Shown: piece after piece, positions 580 to 63,978 of the stretch
Numbering within the stretch: position 1 is the first letter of the stretch
Layout of the letters: each line of letters begins with the position of its first letter
Assembly: GCA_943736015.1 (NCBI GenBank)
Contig: OX031059.1
Coordinates: 20,274,001-20,338,000 of the forward strand
DNA length: 64,000 bases
Origin: Tridacna crocea
Lineage: Eukaryota; Mollusca; Bivalvia; Cardiida; Cardiidae
Reading direction: 5' to 3'
Made by a program: the position numbers and the translations under genes
Notes under the pieces: generated by a model
What the model was told of the DNA's origin: nothing
The model's input: the letters and a program-made list of their open reading frames with translations, nothing else
Databases searched by the model: none

Positions 580-798
580 CCCATTCCCACACAATCCCTA
601 CTACGCACCTGAGAAAGAAGCCTTTAGAAAACATTGTGGGAAAGAAGAAAATGCTAGTAACCAGCATTTTCTCCTTTTCCCGCAGTGTTTTTTACCCTTC
701 ACAAAACAAATTTCAAATTTTCAGTCAGTTTAATTTTGTCGTCTGCAAATGCTTTCACTTTGAACCAGTCTAAAATATTGTCGTCTGATGATAATGAG
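580..798 (-). mobile_element. Family A MITE, full length, TTAA on both sides
   Basis: A 219-bp copy between TTAA 576-579 and TTAA 799-802. It starts CCCATTCCCACACAATCCC and ends with the TCGTCTGATGATAATGAG variant. Confidence 0.85.
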
Positions 799-819
799 TT
801 AAAGCTGTCAGCGTGATCA

Positions 820-1021
820 GGGTCCGTACTCACCAACTATTATTAAGAACATTCTTAGTCTTATTCTTCAGAATTTCGTCAGTGTGAAAGTAACAGAACC
901 TCTGATTGGCTAAACCATATAGTTTAGCCAATCAAAAATTTTGTTTCTTTCACTGTCAGAAAATCTTGAAGAATAAGACAAAGGGCGTACGTTCTTCAGA
1001 ATGATCGGTGAATACGAACCC
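820..1021. mobile_element. Family D fold-back element
   Basis: A roughly 200-bp inverted repeat bounded by GGTCCGTACTCACCAAC and its complement near 1005-1021. The central stem is GATTGGCTAAACCAT / GTTTAGCCAATC. Other copies: 18698, 33367, 47118, and a partial one near 12950. Confidence 0.85.
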
Positions 1022-1283
1022 AGATGACAAAGGGGTAGAAATTACAATCATAGTTAAAATATTTCATTTCCATGGTGGCTGGTAAATGGTGACCACAACA
1101 CTGCAGTGCAATGCTCCAATAAAATGCATTTTTGTCTGCATAATATATTATTTGAGACTTCAAATCACACACTCATGGTGAAAAAAACGAGTTCACTTTG
1201 TTTACAAGACATTATATTGCTATCCTTGACACGTAGGTAACAGTGATAGATTCAGTCTTCTACCAGACGAAAGCACTTACTCA

Positions 1284-1514
1284 GCCCTTTCCCAAACAAT
1301 CGCTGGTTTTTACGACCTTGGGCTAGAAGCCTTTTGAAAACATAGTGGGAAAAGGAGAAAATGCTGGTAACCAGCATTTTCTCCTTTTCCCACAATGTTT
1401 TCTATCCTGCCGGAGACAAATTTCATTTTTTGAGTTGCGTTTAATTTGTCGTCTGCAAGAGCAGTGAATTTGGACCAGTCTATTTTTTTTTTTTTTTTTT
1501 CGTTTGGTAAAGAG
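1284..1514 (-). mobile_element. Family A MITE with T-tract expansion
   Basis: The hairpin is at 1335-1402. The long flank contains an 18-base T run (1483-1500) where other copies read AAAATTTTG. TTAA follows at 1515-1518. Confidence 0.8.
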
Positions 1515-1984
1515 TTAACAAAGCACTTGCAGGCGACAACTTAAGTAGAGACTCAAATGATAGAATACCCTTTGAAATGGTTGCAAACAGTATGGGGAAC
1601 AGGAGATAAATCTGGTTATGAGCGTTTTTACTCCTTTCTAGGACGATTTTGAAAGCGCCGTTTACACACACAGAGCCCCCCCCCCCCCCCCACACACACA
1701 CACACAAATGATTTTTTTTATATAGAAAATTGGCTAGTGACGTATTGCAGGCACCTTTTGGTGGCAATAGAAGACTTTATAAAAGATTGTAGCAAAACGA
1801 AAATTGGATTGTAACGAGAAAGTTTTTCGAGCAGGTAATAAGCTAGTTTTCTTTTTCTCCACAATGGTTTAACGTATACAGGTACTAAACTGTAATTCGT
1901 GTTCATGACTAATATTAAGAGTACTTAAGGTAATCTTTAAGAAATTCATTTCAGGGGCCTATGAGACCCCTTATATAAAATCCC

Positions 1985-2120
1985 TCACCAGACAATCATC
2001 TGTATTTCCCCGGCCGGAAATAAAGAAAACATTCGGAAACATTACTGGAAAAGGAGGCTTTGCCTGTAACTCAGCATTATTTCTTTTCTCCGCAGTGTTT
2101 CTTTTATTTCGGACACAGTT
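1985..2120 (-). mobile_element. Decayed family A copy
   Basis: A diverged hairpin (AACATTACTGGAAAAGGAGG and its loosely paired arm) directly left of the next full copy. Confidence 0.5.
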
Positions 2121-2130
2121 CTTCATTTAA

Positions 2131-2352
2131 CCCTTTTTCCACACAATGACGACATTTGTCGACCCTTAGGTAGAAGCCTTTTGAAAACATTGTGGGAAAA
2201 GGAGAAAATGCTGGTAACCAGCATTTTCTCCTTTTCCCACAATGTTTTCTACCTTTCTCAAATCAAGTTTGGATTCTTCAGTCACATTTATTTTGTCGTC
2301 TGCAAATGCTTTCAATTTGGACCAGTCTGTAAATTTGTCGTTTGGTAAGGAG
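2131..2352 (-). mobile_element. Family A MITE
   Basis: It starts CCCTTTTTCCACACAATG after TTAA 2127-2130 and carries a perfect hairpin. The right-hand target has decayed to TTGA. Confidence 0.82.
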
Positions 2353-2411
2353 TTGAGCCACAGTTTATTTTGGCCGCTGCAAAACGCTTTCATTGGAGAG
2401 GTCATCAGACA

Positions 2412-2875
2412 GTGGTGAGTTCAAAAGGCAGACTGTCACAGATTTTGCTATCTAAATCCATTTTTCTTGCAAAATTGTACTGATGCACAGTCTGTTTCGT
2501 CATGGTTTTGTAAATAAAGCGAAATCAAAAAACCGAAACAGGAAATATGCGTGGTTTATTTTTATATGACGAATATCAGAGAAATATTTGTTAAATCAAT
2601 TTGCCATGTCTGCAATTGACCCCTCATATAATTGTAATTTTTCATTTAGCAAAAGAATCTAAGCAGTAGAAAAAAGAAAAGAAAATTTCGTTAAAAAAGA
2701 AAAAGAAGACTGCTGGACAAGATCATGCGACTTTAAAAAAAGCGAAAAGAATGACCGTCATGTAAAGCAGAATTATGTTTCTACGCGGCGGCTTTTTTAC
2801 TTCTTTGTTTACATGTACAAAAAATGTATTGAAATTAACCTCTCCTGGCTTCTTTTTTAAAGAAGCGAACTTGTA
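2412..2875. repeat. Dispersed repeat X, copy 1
   Basis: From GGCAGACTGTCACAGA onward it matches 54843-55215 closely, including AAATAAAGCGAAATCAAAAA and TTTATTTTTATAT. This copy has an extra purine-rich insert at about 2650-2740. No protein is recognised. It may be an unclassified transposon fragment. Confidence 0.7.
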
Positions 2876-2884
2876 ATATGGTTT

Positions 2885-3245: not shown

Positions 3246-3378
3246 CACTTATTCATATAACCAAGCTTTTAACCTTAGTCAGGCTAAATATTTGGAATGA
3301 GACATTCAAATCGATAGTAAAAACTTAACATATGCCATTTCATATATACTTTTTTTTAAGGGGGCGAGGAGATATACC

Positions 3379-3452
3379 TTCATCGGACAATGTAGATCCA
3401 AGATCAGACTGCACGTTCTGTGCAGTCTGATCTTGATCTGCATTGTCCGTAA
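3379..3452. repeat. Family B hairpin
   Basis: Arms TCGGACAATGTAGATCC and GATCTGCATTGTCCG enclose the core GATCAGACTGCAC / GTGCAGTCTGATC. Confidence 0.82.
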
Positions 3453-3776
3453 ATGGTCCCGTTTTCTCGCTTAGCAGCCTGAGGATTGAATTAAAAGAGC
3501 TGCCTTTGTAAGAATGGATTATTTCAATCATGGAAAAGGTAAAAGTTTATCATACCGGGAGCTGAAGGGGTTTTTCGATGTCGGTGTGCGTGGTTTTTAT
3601 TATCTCTTCCGTCTACCCGACGTGAATCAAAATGCATGCAGCAAGGATAGGCTTGTAGTTTCCTGTGCATCATGCCACAACAAATCCACCAGTGGTTGCT
3701 GGTAAAGTGAAAAATCCTAATCACATCGATGACGTGGTACACTTTCAATTAGAGGCGGAGCGTCGACCCTTCATGT

Positions 3777-5305: not shown

Positions 5306-5461
5306 AAAAGTCATCTCATGCATTCTGATAGGCCAAGGGAAGCCATTGACTTAATTAGATATGCATTTGGTATTCCCATTGGACAAAATCATTTCCGATC
5401 CCACTTGAAGCAACTCGAACCCTTTACATTAATTGTGTTTTCCTGTTAGTTTATCATTAAA

Positions 5462-5684
5462 AACCATGTACCATGCAGTCCCGACTTTTAACGAACCTGA
5501 GGAAGAAGGCATTTGAAAACATTTTGGGAAAAGGAGAAAATGCTGGTAACCAGCATTTTCTCCTTTTCCCAAAATGTTTTCTACCCTTTCGAAACAAATT
5601 TCAATATCTAAGTCATAATTATTTTTGTCGTCTGCTAATGCTTCCAATTTGGACTAGTCTAAAATTTTGTCGTTTGATAAAGAG
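5462..5684 (-). mobile_element. Family A MITE with paired arm substitution
   Basis: One arm reads AACATTTTGGG and the other CCCAAAATGTT. The usual GTG/CAC has thus changed on both sides and pairing is kept. TTAA is at 5685-5688. Confidence 0.85.
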
Positions 5685-5792
5685 TTAATTAAATAAGACA
5701 TCAGTTAAGATTTGTCTATATTTAGAGCATTTTCTAACGACAAATTAAACTTTGCCCAAATTACGACATTTGATTTGGATAGAGTAGGAAGT

Positions 5793-11100: not shown

Positions 11101-14100
11101 TTTGATCGTATCTCAGACTGCAGTAAATCCTGGATCAGACTGCACGTTCTGTGCAGTATGATCTTCATCTACAACGTCTACAAAAGCTGAAACAATTAAT
11201 GTAGCTGTGGAAAGTTACAAAAAAAAAACATGATATATTCTTTTTTCTCCAGATCTACCTCGACCAAAACGATTGCTGGTATTTGTTAATCCCAAATCCG
11301 GACATAAAAAGGGAGTGAAAATCTACTCAAGGAAAGTTTTACCGTTGCTGCAGAAATATGGCGTGAACATTGTGGATTTAATTGGTATGTACTGGACTAA
11401 GCAATGTTGGTTTTTTTTTTTTTAGTAACTGTGCGTAGATCAAGATCAGACCACCTTTTGCTGACAGTGTAGATGAAAGATCAAACTGTGCGATATGAGC
11501 AGTCCGATTTCAATCTACCTTGCCTGCTATAAAACACATTGAATGTTGCAAGACTCTTTCACTCATTACCAAACGATGAAATTTTCGGTTTGTCTAAATC
11601 GAAAGCATTTGCAGACGACAAAATAAAAGTGACCCAAAATTTGAAATTTGTTTCGTGAAAGGTAGAAAACATTGTGGGGAAAGGAGAAAATGCTGGTTAC
11701 CAGCATTTTCTCCTTTTCCCGCAATGTTTTCTAAAGGCTTCTTTCTCAGCAGCGTCAAAAGTAGGGATTGTGTGGTAATGGGTTAATTAATACGGGACAT
11801 AAAAAACTGATTTATGTAAATTAAAAGTATTTGCAGATGACACATTTATTAAATACACCTCAATTTATTGAATTTGTCTTTGACAAATTGACATTGTAAA
11901 AAATGTCTTTGTTAGCTTTTAAAAACGTCTTTGGAAAAGGAGAAAATGCTGATTACCAGCATTTTCTCCTTTTCCGACAATGTTTTCAAAAAGTTTCTTC
12001 CCATTGGTCCCTGCCTAGGGATTGCGTGGTAAAGTTGTTTGAAGATGACTTTTTAAATATAATTCATAATCATGATGAAATTTATGGTCGATAGGGTGAA
12101 CAAAAAACAGTGCCGGAAAAGGAGAAAACATTGATAAGCAACATTTTCTCCTTTTCCCATAATCTTTACAAAAGGTCAGTTGAACCAAGGGATTGCGTAG
12201 CAAGGTATTTAAACAAATGTTTGATATCAAAACAAAAAACCCCGAAAAGATGAAGGGATGCGAATTTCACAATGTTTCATACCTTGACGTAAGAATAAGT
12301 GAGTCTGACAGCGAATTAATTAACATTTCGGTACACTTCGGACAAGATTTGGACACTTTTAGAGTGGTTTGTGAGAACGCAAGATCAGAATAGAACAGAC
12401 AAAAAGCAGGACTTTTCTTTTCCCCTCCGTGTAAAATTTTTGTCTCCAATTCTGCGGTGAAAAGTAGTACCAGCGATCAGTATGTTCAATTTCAATTTCT
12501 TTCATTTATCTCTGTAGCAGACGACAAATTTTTAAACTAGTCCAAAGTAAAAGCATTTACTGACGACGAATAAGGTGTGTCTGAAAGGATTTGCTTTGAT
12601 TGTGAAATGGTAGAAAACATTGTGGGAAAAGGAGAAAATGCTGGTAACCAGCATTTTCTCCTTTTCTTACAATGTTATCAAAAGTCTCCTTTTTAAGGTT
12701 TGTAGGACTAGAGTTTGTGTGAAAATGGGTTAAAGCTCATTTTTTTACATAGCCTGTACTTAAATGTACTAATATATTATTGGTTTACTTCAAAAACCTT
12801 GTAACTACAGCTTGTTTTAAGCTGCAGTTACGACGTTTTTGAAGTAAACCGGAAATATATGTAATTATCTTGTACGTCGCCGACCGCACAATTTATACAC
12901 CAATAAAACAAAAAAAGTGAAAAGTTTACGCACTCTTTACATCTCAGAGCCATTTTGATTAAAATTCTTAAATAGCATTCTAGATCTTAAACATTCTAAT
13001 ACATTTCAATGAAAAGCAATGTCTGATTGGCTAAGTCGAATGGTTTAGCCAATCAGAAAGAGTGTTTCTAGATATAGAATAAGACTAAGAATGTCATCTG
13101 AAACAGTCGGTGTATACAGGCGCTGACATACGTTGACTAAGACAATGAAAATCACAAATATTCCGGTGAAAAAAAAAAAAACGGGAGGATAAGTAAGGGA
13201 TAGTAACTGACCAGAATAAATCTTGGTTAGAATAGAGAAAGGTGTGACAAAGTCACTACAGGCAAAACAAAACACGTGACGTACATTTAGGCTATCCTTC
13301 GAAACCGGTTATTTTCAGTAATATTCCAATCATTGCCGTACTTAGACATTAAAAGCTGCATAAAACCAGATTTTTGCACATGGATCTTTTTTATTGAAAG
13401 TAAAAGAAGAAAAAAAGGATGTTTGGCTTCAACGGAATTTTTAGGATGGGACTATTTAACCTTGATAAAGGGAAAACACGAAAATATAGCGAACATTAAG
13501 TCTAGACTGGGGTTCGAATCTGCTACAGTCAAATCCATAACCCTACCGACTGATGAATCTGCAAAGAAACTGTTCGAAACGCATTTAGATCTTGTTACAG
13601 GATAACTACACCACCCACACACCCCATTTGAAACGTAGTCAGTCTCGTGGTTTCTATAGTCGTTGCTTAACCCTTTACCAGACGACAAAATTTAAGCCTT
13701 GTCCAAATTGAAAGCATTTGCAGCCGACAATTTCAATGTGGCTCAAATAGTGCAATCATTTTTTTTTCGATGGAGTAGAAAACATTTTGGGAAAGGAGAA
13801 AATACTGATCACCAGCATTTTCTTCTTTTCCCAAAATGTTTTCAAAAAGCTTCTTTTCCAGGATCGTTAAAAGCCTTTCTTGTATGGTAAAGGGTTAACC
13901 AAGGAATTTTGTCTGTATAGAGGACTGAAAGCGGAGAGTTCGGGGCATATAAAATGCTGGTAATCAGCATTTTCTTTTTCATATTCCACATCGTTTTCAA
14001 AGGCCGTATGGGACAGGATGGAAAACCAAGGGATTGCTTTATGAATCTATGTCAATTAATTTTGAAAATTTCTTTTTCCTTCATATTTCAGTTACAGAAA

Positions 14101-17100
14101 AAGCTGGCCAACCGCTGGACTACCTCCGAACTTGCGATCTTCGACTTATACATGGGTATGTCAAACCTTGTCCCGGAATTCTTTTTACTATGTCGTAACG
14201 TTTTACATGTATTGAAAATTGACACTTGATTTTTGTAAGCTAAACTGCAGGATGTATATCCATTTACCAAGGAGTGATACCTGCTAAGGGTATCGGTTAC
14301 TTCAGAATAGACAAAAACAAGATGAAGAGGGTATTTGATTTTTTTTTCGGTGAACGATCGAAATTTATCGAGTGAACATCATCGGTAATATATTCACTTG
14401 TGGCTGTCGAAATTTATTTCATCGAGTGAACACCATCGGTGGTATCTTCACGAGTGGCACACCCACGAGTGAAAATATTACCGATGGTGTTAACTCGATG
14501 AAATAAATTTTTATCTTTCACCGAAAAAAACAACAAATATTCAATTTATTGCATGGTTTTTATCCTTTCTGGGAGGAGCTTTATCAAAATCCAGTACAGT
14601 TCTTTTGCGTTATTCCGCGTGGCGTATCCCTCCCGCATAGCAACGCATTACAATATTACGTCATGCGCGAAAAATGTAAGGTAAATGACGTCATATTTAC
14701 ATCTGCTTGTGAGGCAGGCGCAATTTACCTAGGCAACAAGAACATGAAAATCGGTATTTTCACTGGTCGCATCCGTGTAATATTGAAGAATATTTTCACT
14801 GGTATTTCTCGATATTGTACCGGAAAGCATGAAATAATTAGTGAGCTTTCGTTGTGATATGAGATATTGATTAAAGCGATGTAAAATACCATATTAAGAA
14901 CATGGCCCACATTTTTGTTACAGGATCGTATCTGTGGGAGGTGACGGCATGTTTTCAGAATGTGTTAACGGGCTGTTGAGACGGCTACAAGACGACTCGC
15001 ATGTCAACTACAATGATCCAGAGGCCGTCATATCCGCCTCGAAAATACCAATAGGTATTGTGCCCGCCGGTAAGTTTAATTTACGCTGATGTGAAATTGA
15101 TGTAATAAAACAAATTGTTGAAATTGATAATACTACCAAAATTATAATTATGTTTTATTTCTCCGTTAAATCGCTTCGACTAGAGCACCAAAAATGCTTT
15201 CCCAGAGCTTGTTGTCCAAGTATATCAATCAACATTTCAATGTCATTATCCTCTGGAAGCCTTTAACTGCTAAACAACACAATTATAGTCTAGACCAGAG
15301 CTCCAGATAAGAGGGAGTGATGGTATTCTAAATCCATTATTTCTCTTTTAAACCCTATGTTGTGGGTACTCATTAGAATCGTCTCGATGAGACGATTCTA
15401 ATGAGTACCCATAACATAGGATTTAGTGGAGAATGATAAATATTTTTCAATTTTGAAATCAAAATCGCTCCCTCTATCTAGAGCTCTGGTCTACACCATG
15501 ATCAAAAGTGAGAAAAGGGAAAAATCTTGTCGCAATGACTATCATCATTTCTCGAAAGGAAAAAAAAAAGATATGTCGCCAAATAGAAAATCGAACCCGC
15601 TACTCTAAGATAGCAAGCAGGGCAAGTTACGCGCTGACCTACTGGGCTCACAAAACATCATGGACCAAGTAAAAAGCAACCGACGTAAAACAATGTAAAA
15701 GATATGTTGCCAAAATAGAAAATCGAACCCTATATGATAGCAAGCAATGCATGTTACACGCTGACCTACTGGGCTTACAAAACATCACGATCCAAGCAAA
15801 AGGCAACCGACGTAAAACAATGTATACTGAATCACGTGACGATATTTTTACATCCCTACAAATGTATTACAGTTGTATTTTTCTTTAAAACTGTGTTAAA
15901 AGTTTCTTTTATAACCGTGTCAAAATAATAAATCATGACATAAAAACCGGATGTTACCTCAATTAGCTACCGTCACGGCCCGGAGTGCCCTTGAACAAGA
16001 CACACCTTTTGAAAGGCATGTACATCCTCGCAAAATGATGGATAAGGTGGATAATTATCATGAATTAAGTATTAACCAATGAATACAGCTGAAAAATCAT
16101 TGTAGCAAAAGGGGAAATTGCTCGTACCGAGCAATTTCTTCTTTTGCGACAACGTTTTTCAAAAAGCAGTCTGTTCGAAGATCGAAAGAATCGTTTGCAA
16201 AACTAAAAAAGTTAAACCCTTCTTTTTATCTAAAATTTATTATTAATTTTATTAATAATTTTATTATTTATGACAGGTTCTGGTAACTATCTAGTCAACT
16301 ATATTCACGGAACAAAAGATATCGAAACTGCCGTCCTGAAGATCATACTGGGTAAGCTCGTTATTATAAAATACTTGTAATTCTTTCTGGAAAGAATTGT
16401 TTATATTTTTTTTTTCTTTTTAGTGTGTGTGTGAGAATTTTTAATGTTTCAGTTATAAAACGGAGATTGGTCCACCTTACAAGTCATTCCTGTCTATTTC
16501 ATTTTTTGTATACAGTGCTTCGCGCAACATTTTTTCCAAACCTCTGACGAAAAAATGTTCGGCACTGAGAGAGGAACAGTTCTTGTCGCAAAGACTTATC
16601 GCATTCATTCTTCCGAAATGATATTTGAACGCACTGTTAATTTATAGTCCCATTCGTTAGCAAAGATTTTGGCTTAATTCGACTCCACTCGGGTCGGCCC
16701 GGACCGGCCCTGCCCTGCCCTGCCCTGCCCAATCGGGCCCAGTCCGGCCCGATCTGGCCGACCCGGCCCGGCCCAGCTCGGCTTTGCTCGGCAGACCCGG
16801 TCCGGCCATGCTGGACTCGGTTCGGCTCAGCTCGAATCAGATCGGATCATTTGGTATGAAATTGTGGTATTACTCATGAAAACATCAACAACGTTTTCAA
16901 ATTTTGTCATTGACAACTAAATTCGAAATAATCCGATAAACCTCCCCCAATTAGTTTGGATTACATTTACAATGAACACTTGTTTTCTTGCCACGATATT
17001 TTTCAACCACAAAAGAGAAACATGATAATTATTTAGAACTCCAGTGGCGAAATACAATCTGGATCAACAGCTTTTGCGTTTTGATAGAGTTATCAAAAAG

Positions 17101-18086
17101 TTATTTCGGTGCGTTCCTTTGACGAATACCAGTGTGTCGCATTTTTTGATCACCCACCAATTCGAATTCATAAACTGTGTGTAATAATGAAAGCGGAAGC
17201 TGACTCGATAGAAGGAGAAAACCTTTCTAGCCACAGATTCCTATCAATGAAAACACGAATAAGTGTAAGCAAAACTCGTATTTAACCAAAGTGCACTAAA
17301 TTATTATCCCTTTACCACGCAATCCCGACTTTTAACACCCCCTGTGAAAAAACCCTTTTGAAAGCATTGTGGGAAAAGGAGAAAATGCTGGTAACCAGCA
17401 TTTTCTCCTTTTCCCACAATGCTTTCTTTCCTTTCCTTAAACAAATTCTAATTCCTTAGTGACAGTTATTTTGTCGTCTGCAAATGCTTTCAATTTGGAC
17501 CAGTCTAAAACTTTGTCGTTTGGTAAAGAGTTAAAAGAGACCATTCAAAGCCCAAAATCTGGCAGCAGCAGAGTTACCTAGGCTGGAATATACATTCATA
17601 ACAACTTAGAGCATTGTAGATCAGGCTGCAGGCTCTTTGCAGTCTGATTTGATTTCACACTGTCCCTAAAAATCAACATATTAGTTAATGAATAAGAAGC
17701 CGCAGATTCGCATGATCTAAATTCTTAAGTCGATAAAAAGCCACAAGGTAAAATCAACAGATAGATATCAAAGATTGTATGATCAAGTCCTTGACAGTTT
17801 AACAATGTAGCACCTGCGCGGATAAACGTAACTGAGCAGATGGTGCCTTCAGAAGAGCTGAATTCACGAATTAATGAATTCGCGAAATCAAATATGATTG
17901 GAATCTTGCAATATTTTCCTTATTTCAATCTCTCAACCGCTTAATAAATAGAATAGACATTCTTTTTTTTTTTTCCTTATCTACGAAATGAGCTCTGATA
18001 TTGCAAGTACAGTTGATATTATCGTTTAAAAGAATGAAAAAAAGGAAGGAAGGAAGGAAGGAAGAAGGAAAGAAAGAAATAAATGA

Positions 18087-18134
<48 letters not shown>

Positions 18135-18174: not shown

Positions 18175-21100
18175 GAGAACCAATTAGCCACAGAAATGCT
18201 TAAAGCCTGCATCAGTCTGGGTTCGTTATGACGAGAATGTTACTAATGTAACCGCAATACTTTCACCTTGGTTGTAAAAAACGCTGTGAGTTTTACAATA
18301 ATTAGTCATTAAAAAGTTTGAAAGGAAGAGTTAAATCGCTACTTGATAACAAAGGCTGGTGAATCATTTTAAACTTATCTGATGCGAAATGACTATATTG
18401 TGGTGCAGTATGCCATGATTTAAAGCATTGTGGTAGATGGAGGATGAGCAAATTTCTCCCTTTGCTGCATTTTTCATTTCATGTTACTATTTTACAAGGG
18501 TGTTTCTGTTTTCAAGATTGTCATTTGAACAAGTTGGAAGAGAAGATAACGAGTTATAAAGTTTATAAAGTTGCGTGGTATACATCAAACTCTAAGAACT
18601 TTGATGTCGAGAAAGCAAGAAATTTGAGATATCAGTATTTACACGGCTTTCTGTCACCCCACCTCCCCAGCATACGCTTCTAGCTGCTTGAAAATCTGGG
18701 TCTGTATTCACCAGCCATTCTGAAGAAATTTTTTTGTCTTATTTTTCAAGATTTCCCGACTGTGAAAGTAAAAGAACTTCCGATTGGCTAAACCATTTGG
18801 TTTAGCCAATCAGAAGTTCTTTTACTTTCACATCGACAGAATTTTAAAGAATAAAACTAAGAATGTTCTTAAGAATGGTCGGTGAATACGGACTCTGGTT
18901 ATCATCAATTAGGCCTCGAAAATCCATTTTAAATCCTAATTTTTAAAACGTTATCTTATTGCTCAAAAGTTCCGACATGTTATCATTACGGAACCAATGA
19001 AATACTTAATCAACTATTCAAAGTAACGAGACTTTGTTTGTATAATTTCCAAAGTCTATACTTAACATGTACTAATTTTTAAATCATATTATGATTATCA
19101 AACCTTTTTAATATATCATTTTTTTTTATTAGGAGACCACCATTTATCCAACGTCGTCAGTGTTCATGAGGGGCGCCATCTCACCTGCTATGCCAGCTTA
19201 CTTGTAGGGTTTGGGCTTATTGGTTCCATGATGCACGACTGTGAGAAGTTCCGATGGATGGGACCCAGCCGCTATAGTGGTAAATGTTGAATTATTCTTG
19301 GTCTCTTTGACCTTTCATTATCAAAGGGCTGACGGTCATGAAGAGCGGATTTGTGTCACAAAAAATTGATTGTGCTTCTAACCCGTTTGCCGACCAATCC
19401 CGTGTTTTATTAGATTCTGCTATAGACAGCTTTAGAAAGTATTGTGCGAAAATAAGAAAATGCTGATATAGCCTGTCTTTTTAGCTTTACTGACAATGAT
19501 TCCTAATCTTTCAGTAACAGATTCCAACATTTGAATAGTATTTCGTTGTCTACACATGCTTTTAGTTTGAAACCAATTGGAATTTTGTCTCTGATCGAGT
19601 AAACATTGTGGAAAAAGGAGAAAATGCTGGTAACCAGCATTTTCTCCTTTTTCCACGATGTTTTCAAATTTTTTAAGAAAGTATAGGTAGAAAACACGGC
19701 TTGTTTCGGTTTATGAGGGGATAATGTCATACAACAACGAGTTCAACAGAATGTCATTTTTTTTTTGTCGTTTTATGTCGAAATATCTAATAAACCCCCA
19801 TTTAAATTTCACGGCTGATAAAAGACCATTATAAACGATATTATATATCCCACGGTAGTATGAATAATACCTTTGTAAGATTTAACTCCTTACAGTACAT
19901 CAAAAGCTAGCCTACATCAATACTGTTTGCAGATGACAAATTAAACATGCCTTTAATTTCCAAAATGCATTGATAAAAGTTTGAACTCTTTAGCAGAAGA
20001 CAAAAGTCTCAACTCAAAAATTGAAAGCTTTAGCAGACGACCAATGAATTTGTTTCGAATGGTAGCTCTTGTATTTGAAATCGTAGACTCAAATTGCATG
20101 GAAAAGGGGAAAAAGATGGCAACCAGTCGATTGAAACAAAAAGAAAAAAACTCAGGAATGAGTGTTTATGGGTTGAATTAAAACCCCTTATCTTAGTTAT
20201 AGAACAACGATGTATCTACTATTGTATAAATTATGGCTCATCATGATAAAGCAAAAAAAGGCATGAGAAGGAAATAACAGCTGGATTAGGCCGATTGGTC
20301 ATCTGTACTCTTTGTGTAACGCGGCCGAAGCTTGAATCAAAATTTCGTTTTAACCCCTCACATCTTATACCTTTTATCAAACAATACCTACTTTTTACGA
20401 AAAAGATGTCATTTTGCAAGCCCGGTGAGAAAAATGAGACAGTGCTGGTGACCAACATTTTCGCATTTTCTACCTTTTTCAAAGGCAAATCTCACCATTT
20501 TAACTACAATAATTATCGTGTAATCTACAAAACTTTTAAACTTTCGCAGATAAGTCAAATGTTGTTTAAAATATAGGGGCTTGTCTCCGAAAGGATAGAA
20601 ATTATTTTGAGAAAAGGTAAACGTGATGATTATCAATATTTTCTTCGATTTACTTCAAAAAGCCTCGTAAGTACAGCTTGAAACAAGTTGTAGTTACGAG
20701 GTTTTTGAAGTAAACCGACGACTTGCTGAATATCCTTCAATGTTGCCAAAAGCATCTTTTTATCAAGTTCGGAATTGTTTGGTAAATAGTTAATCCTTTA
20801 CTACATAGATACTCATTTCTACGCATTGGTTGTAGGAACCTTTGGAAAACATTGTGGCAAAAGGTGAAATTGCTCGTGACGAGCAATTTCACCTTTTGTC
20901 TCAATGTTTTCTATGCTATAAAAAGGTGTCATAATATTATACACATAAGAAACGGTTTCATCCTTGCTATTATTAAGGGTCAGTTAGAGATACCGTAGAA
21001 ATGCCTTATGGGGTGAAAGGTTAAAGAGTACAAAGCTTCGTTTGCAAGGGAAAAATACTTCTGTCCTGTTTTTTTTTTTTCACCTTTATCTACAGTTGTT

Positions 21101-26700: not shown

Positions 26701-27292
26701 GATTCTGTTCTCGCCTAACGCTGAAACAGTAAATAAGAAAAAATAGTTTCAAGAACTAAAACAAGAATGCTCAACTCATCCTAGTACTTTCAAAGACAGA
26801 TTTCATGCTTATTTCACAGTTTTAAGCACACGTGACATAGAGTGTATACAGCCATGCACAGTCAAGTTTACGATATGCATATATGTACAGGAAACAGTAC
26901 TTTGCTTCAACCAAAGCAAGTACACTTACTAAGTAGAAGAATGCACAGTCAAGTAGATTTCTATATGAGTTTGTATAATACTGCGCAGCTTAGTATATGA
27001 TAGTTACTTGTATATATGCAACCATGTGCAATCTAATATAACTGGTATGACATGATTGTTTACACTCGAAGAATCACTTTATTTGAATTATCAAGGCACA
27101 TGCACTTATGGGACAGAATGATGGTATAATCATGGCCATGCAGTCAAGTATGCGACAATCACTCGAAGAATCACTGTTTTAATTATTGGAGCACCCACAC
27201 ATTTTCGACATAGATTGTGCACAATCAAGTATGTAGTCAAATAAATGACATACATGTGTACAGTCGAACAATCACTTTGTTTTAACCCTTAA

Positions 27293-27512
27293 CCCTTTCC
27301 CAAACGATAAATTTTAGATTCTTCCAAACTCAAAGGGTTTGCAGACGACAATTTCAAATTCGATAAAAATGGCAGAAAGTTCTCTAAATGGGTAGAAAAC
27401 ACTGTGAGAAAAGGGGAAATTGCTCGTTACGAGCAATTTCTCCTTTTCCCACAGTGTTTTCAAAAGACTTGTGCTGCAGACACATAAAAACAAGGGCTTG
27501 TTTGGGAAAGGG
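27293..27512 (+). mobile_element. Family A MITE, GCTCG loop subtype, full length
   Basis: 220 bp between TTAA 27289-27292 and TTAA 27513-27516. Exact terminal inverted repeats CCCTTTCCCAAAC / GTTTGGGAAAGGG. Tip AAATTGCTCGTTACGAGCAA. The arms carry the paired change AACACTGTG / CACAGTGTT. Confidence 0.92.
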
Positions 27513-27720
27513 TTAACCTGCAAAAGAAATAAAATGAAACTTTCCAGCTAACAGTAAAAAGAAAACCCCTAAATTTTACTATTTCATAGTTATTTTCTTT
27601 TTGAAAAGATACCTCCTTATCGGACAGTGTAGATCAAAGATCAGACTGCACGTTATGTGCAGTCTGATCTTGATCTACACTGTCCGCAAAAGACTCTCGC
27701 TTGGCAGCCTAAGGGTTAGG
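27513..27720. mobile_element. Family B element, sharing TTAA with the family A copy
   Basis: It starts TTAACCTGCAAAAG and ends near GCAGCCTAAGGGTTAGG. The internal hairpin 27617-27690 is nearly perfect (CGGACAGTGTAGATCAAAG / CTTGATCTACACTGTCCG). Confidence 0.8.
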
Positions 27721-30753: not shown

Positions 30754-30974
30754 CCCTTTCCAAAACAATCCCTGGTTTTGACGACCCTGATATAAAAGCC
30801 TTTTGAAAACATTGTGGGAAAAGGAGAAAATGCTGGTAACCAGCATTTTCTCCTTTTCCCACAATGTTTTCAACCATTCTGGAAACAAATTTCAATTTTT
30901 GTGTAACGTTTATTTTGACGTCTGCATGTGCTTTCAAATTGGACCAGTCTAAAATTTTGTCGTTTGGTAATGGG
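30754..30974 (-). mobile_element. Family A MITE, full length
   Basis: 221 bp between TTAA 30750-30753 and TTAA 30975-30978. Perfect hairpin; ends CCCTTTCCAAAACA / GTTTGGTAATGGG. Confidence 0.9.
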
Positions 30975-35700: not shown

Positions 35701-38700
35701 CATTCTCTCATTCACTCACTCACTCATTATCATTCAGGACAGACGCCGCATTCAACACATACTTACCCGTCTCTTCGTCCAGATAAGTAGTCAAGAGGAA
35801 GTAGCAGACCGGTTTAAAATTGTTTTCCCCAATGTCAGCCGCTTGTATCCGCAAAGCAAACTCGCCTTCCCTCGGCACTCCGGCTCTGATCTTCATTTTA
35901 GAGGCACTTTTGTCGATTTCAGTTTCCAAGCAAGCTGGAAATAACAGAACATTGCATAACATGACATGGCCCGACATAAAAATGACACATCATAATATAA
36001 CATAACATAATATGGCATGCAACACGAGGAAAGAAGTATTGGGACATTTGCGTAAAGTGTCGTCTCGGATCAAAAAATTGTCGTTTCGGAAGGGTTAAAT
36101 CTTTGTCAAACAATCTCTTAATTTAAAGTTACAATGAAGTCCAAAAGTAAACAAAACTTGTGTTGTGTTTAAATGCATTTGAATTTATATCATATCATTT
36201 AAAAGTATAGAAATTATTATTGAGAAGACAGTCTGTCACTGTACGATCGGCCCAAGTGTAAGTTGCTGACAGAAATTAATTTCAAAACTAGGATAAAACC
36301 TGCCAGATTGCGGTACCTGTAATTAACTTTTTGTATGATTTTAGATTCTTTTTTCTTCTGCCAGCGACTAACATGATTGTGGGACGACCACAAGAGAACA
36401 GACTGTCATCTCCACAATATTTTTGATACTTTTTACCCTTTACCGCACAATCCCAAGTTTTAACGATCCTGAGGAAGAAAGCTTTTGAAAACACTGTGGG
36501 AAAAGAAGAAAATGCTGGTAACCAGCATTTTCTTCTTTTCCCACACTGTTTTCTACCATTCCCAAAACAAATTTAGATTCTTGAATTAAATTCATTTTAG
36601 TCGTCTGCAAATAAATTTACTTTCAAAATGGACTGGTCTAACAATGTGTCGTTTGGTAAAGAGATAAACGGTATGATTTAATTCTTTACCATACGACAAA
36701 ATTTTAGACTGGTTCAAATTGAAAGCATTTGCAGACGACAAAATAAACATGACTGAAACATTGAAATTTGATCTAGGAAAGGCAGAAAACACTGTGGGAA
36801 AAGGAGAAAATGCTGGTTACCAGTATTTTCTCCTTTTCCCACAGTGTTTTCAAAAGGCTTCTTTCTCAGGGGCGTCAAAAGTAGGGATTGTGTGGTAATG
36901 GGTTAAAGTAAGACCCGTGTAATGGAAAACAGCTATTTCCACTAAAATATCATCGGGCAAAATTAGCCATAATTAAAAATGAGTATTATTGAACTACTTT
37001 CACCGATTCATCTTTTTTTTTTACATTTTTTTCTTCTTTGAATTATCATCTATAAATCTAAAACCACTATATTCTCAATTCAAAAGGAGGTAATAATTAC
37101 CCCCTTTTCAGAAAACTAACAAAAGTATCAAAAAATAATTTCAAGATGGACATAAACGGAATTTCTGATCCGTCAGAAATGTGCAAAAATATCATTTCTG
37201 CATAAATCCCTCTTCATCCTTATTAACCAATTAGAAATTTTTGCCATATGTTCACCGGAAATTATTATTATATCTAGTATTTAAAAACATAGCAGGAAAA
37301 GGAGAAACTGCTGGGGCACAGTGTCCCCCCCCCCCATTTCACTGTTTTAACCCCTATCAAAATCATTTGAGACATTTAATTTGTCGTCTGCTTTCCTAGT
37401 TAAGAGCTTAATATTTTTTGTCGTCTGGTTGTTAAGTCAATCTGATATTTCAATCAGTAGCTTTCGTAATTCCGAAAGCTAATTATCAGCGAAATTTCCG
37501 CTTCTTCACTTGAAAGGACCCGGTTTTCAGGTTATAAGGTGTACTTTTCTTGTTCTAGTCCTATTTGTCTAGCTTTCATGCAAAAGAAAAAGACGAAAAG
37601 GATTTGATTCACTTTTATGCACTCAGCGTGGCCTCGAGAAGTACATGATCACGTTTAGAACTCCAAATGTAGGGTAGCATATTCCTGCCACAAGATACGA
37701 GGTAAGCTGTTGTGATAATTCAACAGAACTATCGCGATAAAAAAAAAAGTGTTTTCTTGAAAAATACTATCTAGATAATGAAAGTTTTCATGATAAAAAT
37801 ATCGAGATAATTCCAACTATTATCACGATTTCTTTTTGCTTTCGTGCCCACAACACACGCCGCGAGATACGAGGTATATAGCTATTGCTATAATTCAACA
37901 GAACTATCGTGATAACATTTCTTTTTTAAATACTATCTAGATAATAAAAATTTTCATGATAACAATATCGCGATGATTCTAACTGTAATCATGATTTCTT
38001 TCTGCTTGCGTGCCCACAACACAAGCCGCGGGATATGAGGTAGGTACTACGATAATTTAACAGAGGAACTATCGTGATAAAATAAAGTTTACAAGAAATA
38101 CTATCTAGATAATAAAAGTTTTCACGATAAATATATCGCGATAATTCCAACTTTTATCATCATTTCTTTTTGCTTTCGTGCCCACAACACAAGCCGCGAG
38201 ATAAGACGTAGCTATTTTGTACAATTAAGTAAATTTTAGTTTTTGATACATATTTACTTTGTCGTCTACAAATGCTTTCGATTTGTAAAGTCCATAATTT
38301 TGTTGTTACGTAAAAGCTGATCCACTTTAACCCATTACCACACAATCTCTACTTTTGACGACCCTGGGAAAGAAGCCTTTAGAAAACAGTGTGGGAAAAA
38401 GAGAATGTTTTCTACCTTTTCCAATTCAAAATTCATTTTTCGATTCACATTTATTTTGTCGTCTGCAAATACTTTTAATTTGGACTAGACCAAAATTTTG
38501 TCGTTTGGTAAAGAGATAAAAAAAAAAGACAGATAAAATATTGTGTCGTTTGATAAAGAGTTAAAAGAAAGTAAAGAAAGCCGCTCTAACCTTCAAGGTC
38601 CCCGTTGCAACTATTCTCATGTTGTACCATGTCCACCTTGTACTCCTTTTTTCTGACGACATTTTTGTCTATCTTTATGTCAAAATGTACTTTCTTTCCA

Positions 38701-41700
38701 CCAGCTACCATCGCAATCTTTGGAGCACAGATGTTGGACTTCTCAAGGCCTGCCTCGATGGCGTAAGGTCCATGTCCCCAACCAACATGTTCTGGGTCCA
38801 GTGGAAGCGGTAAGACACTGGGTAGTTTTTCACGACAAATAATCTTGGTCACCATGTAAACTTTCTTCTGATCCGACGCAACTGGTCCTCCGATTATTTC
38901 TAAAGTATAGTCCGCAACCTCGGGACATCTGACTTCAAAAATAAAGTTCCCTTTATTTCTGGAATTAAGCACAAGGCGGGGAATGTCAAAATTTGCCGAA
39001 ATGTCCATTGGTCCGTTACGTTCTCGGATTGTAAGTTTGTATTTAAACGCAAGCTTCTTGGATGGAATCTTGTCCGTCTTAAAATGAACTTTTCCGACGC
39101 CATTTTCCGCATCTATCACACAGGAGTCTTCACTGATGAGGTTCAAGTTATCTTTGAAGAAATGAAGAGTCAAATAAGGAAGGCGGAAGAATTTCTTCAG
39201 ACTTTTCACTTGTTTAGATTTGGGCAGCATTTGATCTTCGACGTCATAGGGAAAGCATTTGGAAATAAACAATTCGGGGTCCGTCAAAAACCAGAATTCT
39301 TTGAAACCCGCTCTCTTACTTTCTTGTTCCGTTGTTGTTTTCTCAGTTTCAGAATCCGTAGTAGCTCGTGGAGCACTCTTCAGCGTTTTGACGATCCATC
39401 TGGGATAGACCGGCCACCATTTTCCTTCTATAAATACCTTATTCCAGATGGCGCTCATTTTCTCCTTGGCTTCATCTAAACTAACCGGTGTATCCCCCGG
39501 TTGATAACTTCCGGATTTCGATATACCTTTCACGATTCCACACTTGATCCCAAATTTTCTGTAATTAATTTGTATTACATGTCAAAATGAAGTAAACCCT
39601 ATCTTTTCGCCTATGTTTTATAAGAAAGTCGGATTAACTTAACTCTACATATACGACAAATTTTCTGATTTGTCCGAACTGAACTCATTTGCAGATGACA
39701 TATCGTCGATTAGCTTCAAAACCCTAATAACTACAGCTTTCTTCAAGCTCTAGTTACGAGGTTTTTGAAGTAATCCGACGATATTAGATATGTCTCAAAA
39801 ATTAAAATTGTATGTCAAATGATACAAAAAATTGTTGGAAAAGGGTATAATGCTAGTTACCAGCGCATTCTTCTTGTCCAACGAGTTTTTTTCAAAAGTA
39901 GATTTCCTCTGAGTAGTTTTGCAGATGGTGCTTTTATTCGCCTCGGCTTTCTGCTCAATAAACGGTGTATATTCAAGATGAAACTTCCGGGATTCAATGT
40001 AATGTTCACAGCGACTTTCTTGTACTCTATATCCGGAAGTTCTTTTTACGTAATATGATAAAATATTGGTTGCAAGAAAAGTCCTAACCTTACCCTATAT
40101 TTCTTTGGCAGAATAGAAAACCTAAAAAGGATTACATTAGATTTCCGACTGATTTATTGTTTGTACAACGAACTAAAATAGGAGGGAAGGTCTGTGTGGC
40201 TAAGTAATGACGGTGAATGAATAGTAATCCAGAAGCCCCTGTCTAGATTCTCACTCGAGGTTACGGGCCTTCAAGTCGTCGGCATTTCTTGGGCAAGACT
40301 TTCGAAAGCCCTAACCTAGTGCTATGTCTTCAGGGTACATAAATTAGGTTTTTCCATGATATCACAGAAAAGTTAAAGCTGTGTAAACTACCATTATTTG
40401 ATTCAGTCACGACATTTTACGCGAAAACAACTGAAAGGTGATAATGAAAGCTTTACTGTGTAAAGATTCAGTAAGGGAACGGAAAATTGTGAAATAGTAA
40501 AAACAACCAGAGAAAACTATATAAGCCATTCCCCCTAGCAAAAGGGGATTAAATGCATCTCGGTGATGTTTTATACCCAGCAGCTCATCACATAATTATG
40601 GATCCATAAAATCCATTTTGTATCACAACCGTCATGAGATAGAACGATCCTTTGACATGCAAAGAAAAATGACTGCGGACTGCGGACTGCGCAGGCTGAC
40701 ATGGGTTGATACTTTTCGCAAATGCATCACTCCCCCCCCCCCTTTCACAGGGTTCATATAAATATATACGACATATTTACGTGCACAGCTTTTCGTAAGC
40801 AACGGCATACGACATTCGTTCATGGTGCAGCTCTGACAGAAGTTTCAGCGGGCAGCCATCACCTAACCCTTCGTCGGGAATGTCTCGACTTTCGTAACAG
40901 TACATCCAGTAAGTTATCGCTCTGTAATTAGATATTTTACAAATTAAACATGAGAAAAGTTATAATCAACTCATTAGCGACGCCTTTCTACGTGTGATGG
41001 GGACAAATATCTGACTGCCTTTTTTCAGAAAGCACAGATCCAAGATCTTGGATATACATCGTCAGTCTTTAATTGTTTGTTTTATTTCTTTAATTATTCT
41101 GACCAAAAAACCACCTCCTAGAAAGGGGTACTGGCCTGAGATATGCATCTTTTTTTTTCCTCATTTCCCTGTAATTTTGTCAGAAGTCCTTTTGCTCAGA
41201 ACTGTCAAAACAAAGAAGTGTTTCAAAAAGGGTTCATGATAATATATGAGCCATGCTCTAGAAAAAGGGTGCTTATAGCATCTCTGTGATCAATGGCATC
41301 AAGTAAGTCATCAGATGATCACGGATCATTGGGAGGCTTTTTTTAAGCAACCGACCGAATCATGAGGTAACACGGTTCTTTGCAAACAAAAATTTACTGA
41401 AAGCAATATAGGTCCCAGGTTTCAGTTTCACTGTATCTACTTGGTTTTTCGTGGGGGGTATCCTTGGGCAAGACGATTCAGGTCCCTGGCCAAGTACTGG
41501 TGGAACCCAGGAAATGCATAAATGTGACCCATCACGCAAAAAGAGACCATCTGGGAATTCTGTACATCAATTAGATGAAAAAGGCTAAACAGCTAAACGA
41601 TAGTGCAGGTTAGTTTAAGTTGATAATTTCATAACAAGGTACGATGACCACTTTTCATACAGAAAATGACGTTGCAGCGAAAAGTGTCAACCATGGTCAG

Positions 41701-44210: not shown

Positions 44211-44417
44211 CCCCCCTTCCCTGCTAAATGAGTGAAATTACGCTATTTAGACAAAAGTAAAATGTTTAGAATTCTTATTCAAAAGATGATTTTTTTCTCG
44301 AGAAAAATATCTCCTTTCGGACAATGTAGATCCAAGATCAGACTGCATGTCCTGTGCAGTCTGATCTTAATCTAACCTGTCTGCAAAAGGCGATAGTAAA
44401 ATCTTTAAAAGTGCTAT
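44211..44417. mobile_element. Family B element between two family A copies
   Basis: Bounded by TTAA 44207-44210 and TTAA 44418-44421. It starts CCCCCCTTCCCTGCTAAATG. Hairpin 44318-44392 (CGGACAATGTAGATCC ... GATCTTAATCTAACCTGTCTG). Confidence 0.8.
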
Positions 44418-47009: not shown

Positions 47010-47360
47010 CTCTTTACCCGCCCCCCTCCCCCCCCCAAAAAAAAATCTCGATTCTTAACGACTCTGAAGAAGAATGGAAAACGTTTTCGGGAAAGCAGAA
47101 ATTGCTGGTAACCAGCAGGGCCCGTATTTATCAACCATTCTTAATAACGTTCTTTGTCTTATTCTTCAAGATTTTCTGATATTGAAAGTAACAGAACTTC
47201 TGATTGGCTAAAACATTATGGTTTAGCCAATCAGAAGTTCTGTTACTTTCACACTGACGAAATTATGAAGAATTAGATGAATAATGTTCTTCAGAATGGT
47301 TGGTGAATACGAGCACAGGACGTTCTCCTTTTCCCATGTGGTTTTTGAGTCGCCTGGTTG
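47010..47360 (-). mobile_element. Family A copy split by a family D insertion
   Basis: The left part (47010-47117) runs through GAAATTGCTGGTAACCAGCA, exactly to the hairpin tip. The right arm resumes after 47315 as GTTCTCCTTTTCCCATG. Confidence 0.75.
47118..47315. mobile_element. Family D fold-back nested in family A
   Basis: GGGCCCGTATTTATCAACC / GGTTGGTGAATACGAGC ends with a near-perfect stem GAACTTCTGATTGGCTAAA. Confidence 0.87.
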
Positions 47361-62900: not shown

Positions 62901-63978
62901 GTTTGATAACAACTTGACCTTGGCAACATTACGCATGCTATTTTTCAGATTAGATGACCAACACACTGATAAAGCCGGGCTACCAAGACAAGCACTAAGA
63001 TGCCCCAAAACAAGGAAGTGTGCAAATGGGAAAGGTACATACTTTACCAGATTTTCAACAGTATTTAAGTTTTGTAGCTGCTACACCTATCTATGCATTC
63101 TTGGAGTTTCTGGAATTATGCTGTTCTACATTCTGCTCTTGATACCCATTCTGTATATTGAGCAGGTCAGATTTATTCTGCAACTAGCCATGGGCATTCT
63201 TAGCTGAGATACCTACCTGTGGAAATTTACAGGTTTTTCACCATGTCCCTCACAGTGCTATGGTTTGAGTTTTCTTAAATCTAACAGTCTACTTTAATCT
63301 TGCTTAGAATATCAAATATCATCATCAATCCAATAAGTGACAAAAACAGCAAAACGCACATATTAAATTTTGGTAAAAAAGGTCATTGGTGCTACAAGTA
63401 CAGAGTTGTGGAAAGCCAGAGTTTCCCAACATACAGCAAATAGCAAAGTCCAGACTGCAATTTTTGCGACCTCTGATCTCTAGGCAAAAATAAAGAGCCA
63501 ACAGTGATAGGTATTCAGAAGTTAGTTGTAGAATAATGAAACGTTCTCCGTCTTCAACAGGTACATGTACTCATGGAAGAAAGCTTTAAGTTTCTTTGTA
63601 AAGTTTCTGTCACATATTATTTTGCCCCAAATTCCAGAATTTTAAGAAACCCAGGAAGGAAACTATTAGATATAATCTGGGACAGAGAGAAAATACTGTA
63701 AACCAGCATTTTCTCCTTTGTCTACATTGTTTGCTACACTTCCAAAAGCAAATTTCATTTTTCAAGAGACTTATTGAGTCATCTGAAAGTGTTTTAAAAT
63801 TGGACAAGATTTTTAGAAATGTATAGGCCATCTTACTAGTTATGTCAAGTAAAAAAGGTATGTGAAACATTTTCCTTACATCTTTGTTCCATTAGTTGAC
63901 CCACAGACAGAAGTGAGGGACTTAGCTATTATCCTTTCCACCAAGTGGCCCCAAACCACCTTGCAGTTTGCCACATGA
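47860..63978 (+). CDS. Unrecognised + strand gene, 3' part (four exons)
   Basis: Exons 47860-47993, 50801-50868, 62949-63034 and 63896-63978 splice in phase: two entry bases, then phase 0, then CG|A, then G|TT. Together they encode about 122 residues. The pieces read DHPFHAGDLGGTEWSSSKQI, RHGPTYSLANKKLPSLYARN, LDDQHTDKAGLPRQALRCPK and DPQTEVRDLAIILSTKWPQT, then a TGA. The protein is basic with no membrane segment. I do not recognise a family. The 5' exons were not found, and further exons could hide in the 12-kb third intron. The chance of four phase-compatible exon-like ORFs is low but not negligible. Confidence 0.5.
48118..48335 (+). mobile_element. Decayed family A copy, GCTCG-like loop
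   Basis: CTCTTTTCCAAACGACAAAT at left, right end GTTTGTTTGGGAAAGTG. Tip GAAGTTGCTTATACCGAGCAATTTC. Confidence 0.68.
48777..48892. repeat. GTACGAAATGACC interspersed tandem motif
   Basis: GTACGAAATGACC or close variants occur five to six times in about 110 bp with uneven spacing. Confidence 0.8.
49575..49712 (-). mobile_element. Family A right half
   Basis: Starts AACCAGCTTGTTCTC and runs to CGTTTGGTAAAGAGTTAA. Confidence 0.7.
49777..49910. repeat. 67-bp tandem duplication
   Basis: TAGACTGTATTAGTCAGTAG... at 49777-49843 is repeated at 49844-49910 with one substitution (ATCTATT / ATTTATT) in the stretch compared. A recent event. Confidence 0.93.
50020..50062. repeat. (CAT)n / (CAA)n microsatellite
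   Basis: CATCATCATCATTATTATC then CAACAACAACAAC. Confidence 0.92.
50153..50377 (+). mobile_element. Family A MITE, full length
   Basis: 225 bp between TTAA 50149-50152 and TTAA 50378-50381. The tip carries a 4-base asymmetric insert (GCTGCATGGTTATCAGC). Confidence 0.87.
50400..50645. repeat. Imperfect direct repeat, about 120 bp
   Basis: ACACGTCCTATCCCGAACGC / ACACGTTCTACCCCGACCGC, and AACAGGTTTGGTGAGACAGG / ATCTAGTTTGGTGTGACGGG recur in order. Confidence 0.7.
50801..50868 (+). CDS. Unrecognised gene, exon b
   Basis: The acceptor is ATTACCTATTAG and the donor GTAAAT. The phase-0 frame reads RHGPTYSLANKKLPSLYARN then QL and two bases CG. These complete Arg with the A that starts the next exon. 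The reverse strand here also has an exon-like structure (50863-50794), so the strand is inferred from phase agreement with its neighbours. Confidence 0.45.
51440..51935. repeat. Tandem repeat of about 140-160 bp, four units
   Basis: Each unit holds CATAAACAAGAAA, a TTGAAATGGCTAC-like block, AATCAATAGGGTTGAAGC and ACTGTGCAAGT. Microsatellite-like T and A runs cause length variation. Confidence 0.85.
51988..52133 (-). mobile_element. Family A right half
   Basis: Starts at the hairpin tip (GCTGGTAACCAACATTTTC) and runs to ATTTGGTAAAGAGTTGA. The 51.4-51.9 kb tandem repeat replaces the left half. Confidence 0.75.
52208..52429 (-). mobile_element. Family A MITE, full length
   Basis: 222 bp between TTAA 52204-52207 and TTAA 52430-52433. 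Ends CCCATTACCACACAATCCC / GTTTGGTAATGAG. Confidence 0.9.
52434..52590. mobile_element. Family B element abutting the family A copy
   Basis: Begins at TTAA 52430-52433. Decayed hairpin 52470-52532 (GATCCACGATCAGACTG ... CAGTCTGTTCCTGATC). Confidence 0.65.
52595..53555. other. Intronic stretch without recognised features
   Basis: A T run at 52948-52970 is the only simple repeat. No exon-like ORF with good splice sites and no fold-back is seen. Confidence 0.5.
53560..53774 (+). mobile_element. Family A MITE
   Basis: Starts TTTACCAGGTGACAAAATTG and ends ATATGTGGTAAGGGG at TTAA 53775-53778. Tip GCTGTTTATCAGC. Confidence 0.82.
53790..54040 (+). mobile_element. Two SINE tails
   Basis: GAAATCGTGTTGAAGGCGGC with AAAACACCATCAATC (53835-53880) and GAAATAATGTAGAAAGTGGC (54005-54040). 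These are complements of the tail seen in the other SINEs. Confidence 0.65.
54843..55215. repeat. Dispersed repeat X, copy 2
   Basis: Matches 2412-2875 from AAAAGGCAGACTGTCACAGA through CTTTTTTACTTGTTTGTTTAC. It ends where the tandem array begins. Confidence 0.7.
59916..60137 (+). mobile_element. Family A MITE with verified TTAA target duplication
   Basis: 222 bp between TTAA 59912-59915 and TTAA 60138-60141. The paralogous empty site at 55642-55645 reads GAATATATTAAGGGAAAAC with a single TTAA. Removing the element and one TTAA from this copy restores that sequence apart from point changes. Confidence 0.95.
61565..61620. repeat. T run followed by G-rich tract
   Basis: About 22 T's then GGGGGTGAGGGGGGGGAG. 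Confidence 0.9.
62696..62911 (-). mobile_element. Decayed family A copy just upstream of exon c
   Basis: Starts CCCTTTCCAAAATCCTG after TTAA 62692-62695; right end AGCGTTTGATAACAAC. The acceptor of exon 62949 lies about 35 bp beyond. Confidence 0.75.
62949..63034 (+). CDS. Unrecognised gene, exon c
   Basis: The acceptor is GCTATTTTTCAG and the donor GTACAT. Only one frame is open; it encodes LDDQHTDKAGLPRQALRCPK then TRKCANGK. It has phase 2 in and phase 1 out, which fits exons b and d. Confidence 0.5.
63035..63600 (+). other. Intron without recognised repeats
   Basis: Lies between exons c and d of the unrecognised gene. An open hydrophobic read-through follows exon c, but the GTACAT donor and phase fit favour splicing. 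No hairpin is seen until 63630. Confidence 0.4.
63630..63850 (-). mobile_element. Decayed family A copy
   Basis: Hairpin AGAGAAAATACTGTAAACCAGCATTTTCTCC with diverged outer arms; long flank AGTCATCTGAAAGTG. Confidence 0.6.
63896..63978 (+). CDS. Unrecognised gene, last exon
   Basis: It follows a good polypyrimidine acceptor (TCTTTGTTCCATTAG). Only one frame is open; it encodes VDPQTEVRDLAIILSTKWPQ then TTLQFAT and TGA at 63976-63978. The window ends 22 bp later. Confidence 0.5.

Follow-up and report, generated by a model that had tools for sequence, protein, structure and literature searches.

Family A and the other repeats of the window

The window, a stretch of 64,000 nucleotides from the giant clam Tridacna crocea (contig OX031059.1, positions 20,274,001 to 20,338,000), carries copies of a small repeat, here called family A, of which the copies central to this study are collected in Table 1. 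The element is ~225 bp long and reads, in order, TTAA, CCCTTTACCA..., left flank, 67-bp palindrome, right flank and ...TGGTAAAGAGTTAA, the model comprising 53 left-flank, 67 palindrome and 104 right-flank columns. Its consensus stem forms 33 perfect pairs around one base, and the stem at 30804-30870, folded as DNA, reaches -36.5 kcal/mol (z -15). A previous reading made from the sequence alone (the sequence-only reading) had pointed to seven copies altered on both arms of this stem. All seven show the two-armed changes described, at coordinates that mark element starts, with the stems lying ~50-105 bases further in and the copy at 16100 being a fragment.

Table 1. Family A copies and hairpins of the window discussed in the text (pairs are numbered as in the family A stem).
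Feature	Position	Strand	Remarks
Family A copy, young subfamily	27289..27516	-	TTAA ends, CCCTTTCCCAA inverted terminal repeats; set consensus has paired changes at pairs 3, 8, 26
Hairpin of the 27289 copy, 67 bp	27395..27461	-	two-armed CACTGTG/CACAGTG, GAAATT/AATTTC, GCTCG/CGAGC; two one-sided changes
Family A copy with GAAG/CTTC (pair 14)	36431..36661	+	both arms in 19/20 fetched sisters
Hairpin of the 36431 copy	36487..36553	+	pair 26 is a C.C mismatch and thus uncompensated
Family A copy with AAGCATTG/CAATGCTT (pair 29)	17304..17534	+	both arms in 1/20 fetched sisters (L033)
Family A copy with TTTTGGG/CCCAAAA (pair 24)	5459..5689	+	common to 0/20 fetched sisters
Second copy with TTTTGGG/CCCAAAA (pair 24)	13668..13898	-	flanks not close to those of 5459
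Family A copy with CACTGTG/CACAGTG (pair 26)	36679..36906	-	two-armed change
Subfamily E copy	20790..20925	+	two-armed changes at pairs 3, 8, 13, 20; G.T mismatch at pair 21
Degraded E-like hairpin with GCAAAAG/CTTTTGC	16091..16186	-	fragment
Representative consensus hairpin	30805..30871	+	33/33 pairs
Another consensus hairpin	2183..2249	+	inside copy 2128-2355

Judged by its sequence, family A is a putative MITE, a non-autonomous DNA transposon, that belongs to the TTAA/piggyBac type and has the 67-bp palindrome at its centre. TTAA is present at both ends in 41 of the 59 copies with complete ends (window plus loci L002-L028) and in 18/20 copies of the young 27289 subfamily, where the bases outside the flanking TTAA are without consensus. 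PiggyBac-type MITEs have been defined by terminal inverted repeats with a CC[C/T]T motif (PMC2872659), and in the 27289 subfamily both ends carry CCCTTTCCCAA. In the main family the left end is CCCTTTACCA but the right end mostly (64 %) CTCTTTACC, so that one end deviates. Furthermore, the piggyBac transposase domain PF13843 has 118 genome matches over the cut-off, many without stops, which supply a transposase source of this superfamily in the same genome. Inspection of the flanks at 10 of these 118 loci revealed four with paired TTAA-CCC ends (CCCATTTATGCC, CCCTTTATATAC, CCCTAGTCATGC and CCCTTTCAGTGC), a fifth with a left CCCTTTATATACG alone, and nothing clear at the other five; no autonomous partner with ends equal to those of family A past the first 7 bases was among these ten. 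The family A hairpin pattern had 0 matches in viral contigs.

Within the 1.05-Gb genome (31 contigs), 20 stretches of 10 kb placed at round positions on contigs C1-C4, and hence not a random draw (L009-L028; 200 kb), contained 87 near-full family A elements and 111 near-full hairpins, six of the latter belonging to one tandem array. If the rest of the genome is similar, family A would extrapolate to some hundreds of thousands of copies. In the tandem array at L011 (1279-9690), whose unit includes a family A element, six hairpins of the same sequence recur every ~1,670 bases. Two further loci, L088 (G000:C16:25988040-25988510) and G000:C16:7521344-7521783, each have two like-oriented copies with matches that overlap slightly, by a few bases, which would fit a terminal TTAA common to both; the arrangement resembles the tandem arrays reported for the CMITEs of corals.

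A second repeat, family B, has TTAACCCTTATCC-type ends (also described as TTAACCCTT-type) and the core palindrome GGACAGTGTAGATC..., and lies at 3374-3459, 27611-27696 and 44308-44393 among other places (65 hits in 287 kb), so that the design recurs in the same window. Family C (883-953, 18761-18831 and 47182-47252), with 14 hits over the 287 kb, seems to form a single palindrome from end to end. Long palindromes that differ from these in sequence (AACCCTATGTTGTGGG..., GCGCAGGCTAATCC... and others) occur in addition at 15386, 22592, 28816, 31289 and 41709, so that small palindromic repeats are common in the window. The window also contains, at 38586-39581 on the minus strand, an open frame that resembles an exon and encodes a KY-like immunoglobulin-like domain (PF23265).

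Compensatory changes among copies

In the 38 window copies, the changed pairs comprised 159 one-sided, 12 compensatory and 14 two-sided non-complementary ones; the corresponding counts for 131 copies (window plus L002-L028) were 613, 54 and 47. From this larger set the query-hit copies of L002-L008, being ascertained, and copies with <60 stem letters were left out, and L001 was dropped as the same DNA as the window; copies covering <80 % of the columns were likewise dropped (85 % in the first tree). When right arms were shuffled among copies of like age, the 54 compensatory cells compared with 32 +/- 5, and 0 of 500 shuffles were as high. Counting pairs in the 77 gap-free stems of the 131 gave 36 compensatory cells versus 9.3, with 6-19 for slid pairings. 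Compensation thus exceeds chance, although the statement of the sequence-only reading that changes often occur on both arms was too strong, one-sided changes being the majority.

The excess at the level of copies resides mostly in a few subfamily pairs. Without pairs 3, 8 and 26, 35 compensatory cells stood against 24.6 in shuffles (15 of 1000 as high), and without pairs 13 and 20 as well, 27 against 21.7 (129 of 1000 as high). In all three counts the two-sided unpaired cells also exceeded the shuffles (43 versus 26.4 in the last), and therefore hot spots, shared variants or misalignment may inflate both the unpaired and the compensatory kind; moreover, the shuffles pool shared one-sided variants with other one-sided changes. 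Family B, taken as a replicate, gave a weak signal in 42 copies (25 compensatory versus 18.6 in shuffles; 17/500 as high).

Origin of the paired variants

Seven copies chosen for carrying paired changes, four from the window and three from fetched loci, were traced genome-wide to 20 related loci each. Each search scored 40 places, of which 20 were fetched as sisters; these were not in every case the top-scoring 20, since four places for 5459 and eight for E entered on account of their hairpin match. The sets of L043 and L158 consist of newly fetched places only, with loci already in the data left aside, and L088, containing two adjacent copies, was left out of the 27289 set.

For five of the seven, the paired variants were common to relatives. 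The consensus of the 27289 set, whose query has its closest other place at 96 % (among the 40 places scored genome-wide), is itself altered on both arms at pairs 3, 8 and 26, and a few members differ at single positions. Likewise, the E set (query L002:2571) shares two-armed changes at pairs 3, 8, 13 and 20 along with a one-sided G.T at pair 21 in 15/21 copies. In the 36431 set, the single sister without the pair 14 change on both arms, L060, has a gap in the left arm, and the pair 2 change of L043 is common to its closest relative L149. The two-armed change of 17304 at pair 29 (AAG/CTT) was common to L033 only among the 20 fetched sisters, two others, L037 and L038, having the right arm alone changed. 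The remaining two variants are those of 5459, whose sisters showed the right-arm change alone in two cases and came no closer than 0.147 in the flanks, and of L158, whose two paired changes occurred in 0/20 newly fetched sisters. Most of the two-armed changes traced are therefore diagnostic of subfamilies or sub-lineages and were inherited whole from a source copy. The earlier suggestion of separate sub-lineages fixed before their spread thus holds for five of the seven variants traced, and suffices for most of the copy-level excess.

Stem evolution in source lineages

Grouping by flanks yielded seven clusters of at least 4 members (123/235 copies, of which 77 came from targeted fetches; E not among them). 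Between these clusters, 6-49 of the 157 flank columns differ; every stem consensus is 33/33 paired, and the fixed stem differences between clusters amount to 4 paired and 0 unpaired ones. The stem consensus of subfamily E has 32/33 pairs and one unpaired difference. Its hairpin departs from that of A at 10/67 positions, namely the unpaired centre, eight positions forming four complementary pairs, and one one-sided change. Only 10/20 E sisters were kept in the first alignment to A because their right half does not align to it, and they were realigned as a set of their own; this right half matches that of A over no more than 11 bases. In these modest numbers, subfamily E has thus retained the same hairpin next to a right half without detectable similarity to that of A. 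In 200,000 trials with randomly placed changes, 6 changes never formed 3 complementary pairs and 9 never formed 4, and 2 changes formed 1 such pair in 1,068 trials.

A first tree had been built on all flank columns, which favours internal flank changes, and was redone with held-out columns: trees built on half of the flank columns were tested on the other half. Over 6 such replicates, internal branches carried 0.85 changes per column in the stem versus 3.15 in the held-out non-CpG flank (3.7-fold fewer), and terminal branches 14.6 versus 23.2 (1.6-fold fewer). Compensatory versus one-sided events numbered 6-10 versus 27-50 on internal branches and 34-38 versus 736-754 on terminal ones. The Fisher p for internal versus terminal compensation was 0.0002 in replicate 0, 0.0005 in the all-flank tree and 0.057 in replicate 5, the least favourable, with the proviso that the events of a single tree partly depend on one another. 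One-sided internal events outnumbered compensatory ones in every tree, and as several trees count one pair change twice, the founder events that are truly independent may number six or seven.

Hence, within the modest numbers available, the stem changed less than the flanks in the lineages that founded subfamilies, and its changes were often compensated. Sources with mismatches did amplify, for instance those with the G.T at pair 21 found in 15/21 E copies (eight E places having been picked for better self-match), or with A.C at pair 2 and G.T at pair 21, each in 3/20 copies of the 27289 set; pairing is therefore not strictly required. The proposal that the arms are selected for as hairpins finds partial support, at the level of source lineages only, where stem changes are rarer and more often paired. 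As for the counter-case that the sequence-only reading had itself named, i.e. paired changes no commoner than a few subfamilies would explain, it nearly describes the copy counts but not the founder changes.

Decay of settled copies

In the two youngest bursts (queries left out), 38/38 changed pairs were one-sided, with 0 compensatory and 0 other; settled copies in young bursts decay by one-sided mutation only. Non-CpG changes confined to one copy affected 14/1260 and 9/1323 stem positions and 33/3099 and 25/3365 flank positions in the two sets, which sum to 23/2583 (0.0089) for the stem versus 58/6464 (0.0090) for the flank. Homogenisation of the arms in place, one of the options raised by the sequence-only reading, was tested in these young copies and is supported by neither result. 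Two-armed changes arising in resident copies, as a hairpin maintained by template switching should display, did not appear among the 38 changed pairs of the young sets.

With all changes counted, the young stems were hit less often, at 19/1260 (0.0151) versus 61/3099 (0.0197) in the flanks of one set and 17/1323 (0.0128) versus 77/3365 (0.0229) in the other, and in five older-type sets the single-copy changes were also fewer in the stem. These lower stem counts and the older-type deficit probably reflect lineage structure in the flanks. Together with the 1.6-fold terminal deficit, they also mean that the stem may have a lower substitution rate in settled copies.

Across 139 sisters, queries left out, there were 203 one-sided, 8 compensatory and 7 other changed pairs, where shuffles gave 2.2 compensatory and 0/1000 reached 8. 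Three of these eight compensatory cells (L033, L043 and L149) were common to a known relative. The other five (L060, L091, L158 twice, and L183), all from older-type sets, are not known to be shared with a relative and may stem from rare template switching or from sub-lineages outside the sample.

Discussion

We favour, with a probability of roughly 0.7, a reading in which intact hairpins are advantageous in the transposing source lineages, pairing is inherited from the founders, and one-sided decay follows in the settled copies. An intact hairpin would favour the mobilisation or amplification of its source copy, and sources with a broken hairpin would leave fewer descendants until the partner base also changes. 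The hairpin-dependent step might be cruciform extrusion, the bringing together of the ends, or hairpin formation in single strands. Selection on source-lineage hairpins accounts for the low rate of stem changes as well as for their pairing, whereas unbiased conversion from arm to arm accounts for the pairing alone. The low stem change could also reflect selection on the sequence itself instead of on pairing.

A mutational origin of the pairing seems to us unlikely. Template switching or cruciform repair, in the sources or in the course of transposition, would here transfer a mutation to the opposite arm. Two-armed events in hairpins have been reported (PMC8794818; PMC8604942; PMC3820800), and the five compensatory cells without known sharing, including those of L158, would fit such a process. 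Against it, no changed pair in the two youngest sets is compensatory, and unbiased conversion should leave the rate of change unaltered, yet the stems fall 3.7-fold below the held-out flank on internal branches. Intermediates with one arm changed do exist (L037, L038), and the terminal branches of the first tree show 1 pair restored versus 629 broken, a comparison of little weight, as few of the inferred ancestors offered a mismatch to restore.

That a few subfamilies merely began with paired variants by chance, without any force on the hairpin at any stage, agrees with the largely subfamily-specific excess among copies. This account is disfavoured and quite improbable, because the founder changes are paired far beyond random placement and the subfamily stems remain paired as the flanks diverge, so that ancestry alone is insufficient. 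About equally improbable is selection on a hairpin in RNA transcribed from family A, be it a small-RNA precursor or a protected transcript. The stem would indeed yield a long RNA hairpin, but a wobble bias, sought in the 131 copies and in the sister sets, was absent: G.T and A.C mismatches numbered 168 versus 191 in the former, without G.T preference, and 59 versus 72 in the latter, the shared G.T of the E set included. This comparison is a weak test, as the mismatches mostly arose after insertion. Furthermore, no Rfam family reached its gathering score in the window.

Palindromic MITEs are known from zebrafish, where the Angel fold-back elements have been proposed to amplify through hairpins. 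In a survey by listings of the open-access literature on compensatory change in MITE hairpins and on palindromic MITEs, we found no paper on such change.

Closest in design, by description, is a MITE-like repeat of the clam Lucina pectinata (consensus sequence 1), which resembles family A in its size (210 bp), its terminal inverted repeats (30 bp, imperfect) and its central self-complementary segment (77 bp, 96 %), and of which similar fragments occur in other molluscs (PMC4732748). It differs in that its target-site repeats were unidentified by its authors and, in the excerpted account, no analysis of arm changes is given (PMC4732748). Closest in kind are the CMITEs of Acropora corals, small TTAA-flanked piggyBac-type MITEs with CCCTTT-like ends, tandem arrays and an internal region more conserved between families than the ends (PMC2872659); like family A, they combine TTAA and piggyBac-type ends with an internal region conserved across families whose ends differ. 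By the same kind of comparison, the CMITEs are ~100 bp long with a 75-base internal region, and the excerpted description names no palindrome and describes no compensatory change (PMC2872659). For the two-armed changes as such, the closest known process is quasipalindrome correction or short-range template switching, which predicts two-armed changes in hairpins (PMC8794818). Unlike that expectation, young settled family A copies show none, and the changes traced are mostly those of founders.

In the usual view, a MITE requires little more than its termini. Founder changes are often compensated and those of young settled copies one-sided, a contrast that points to an internal part of the element that matters for amplification. 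Tentatively, and at somewhat less than even odds, we propose that the 67-bp palindrome might be a portable module that promotes transposition: selection for pairing of the DNA in source lineages would maintain it, TTAA MITE families with unrelated other halves would have it in common, and it would account in part for the enormous copy number. As a natural experiment, the same contrast allows selection acting at transposition to be told apart from in-place repair, and with 87 near-full copies per 200 kb sampled, the same test can be scaled up.
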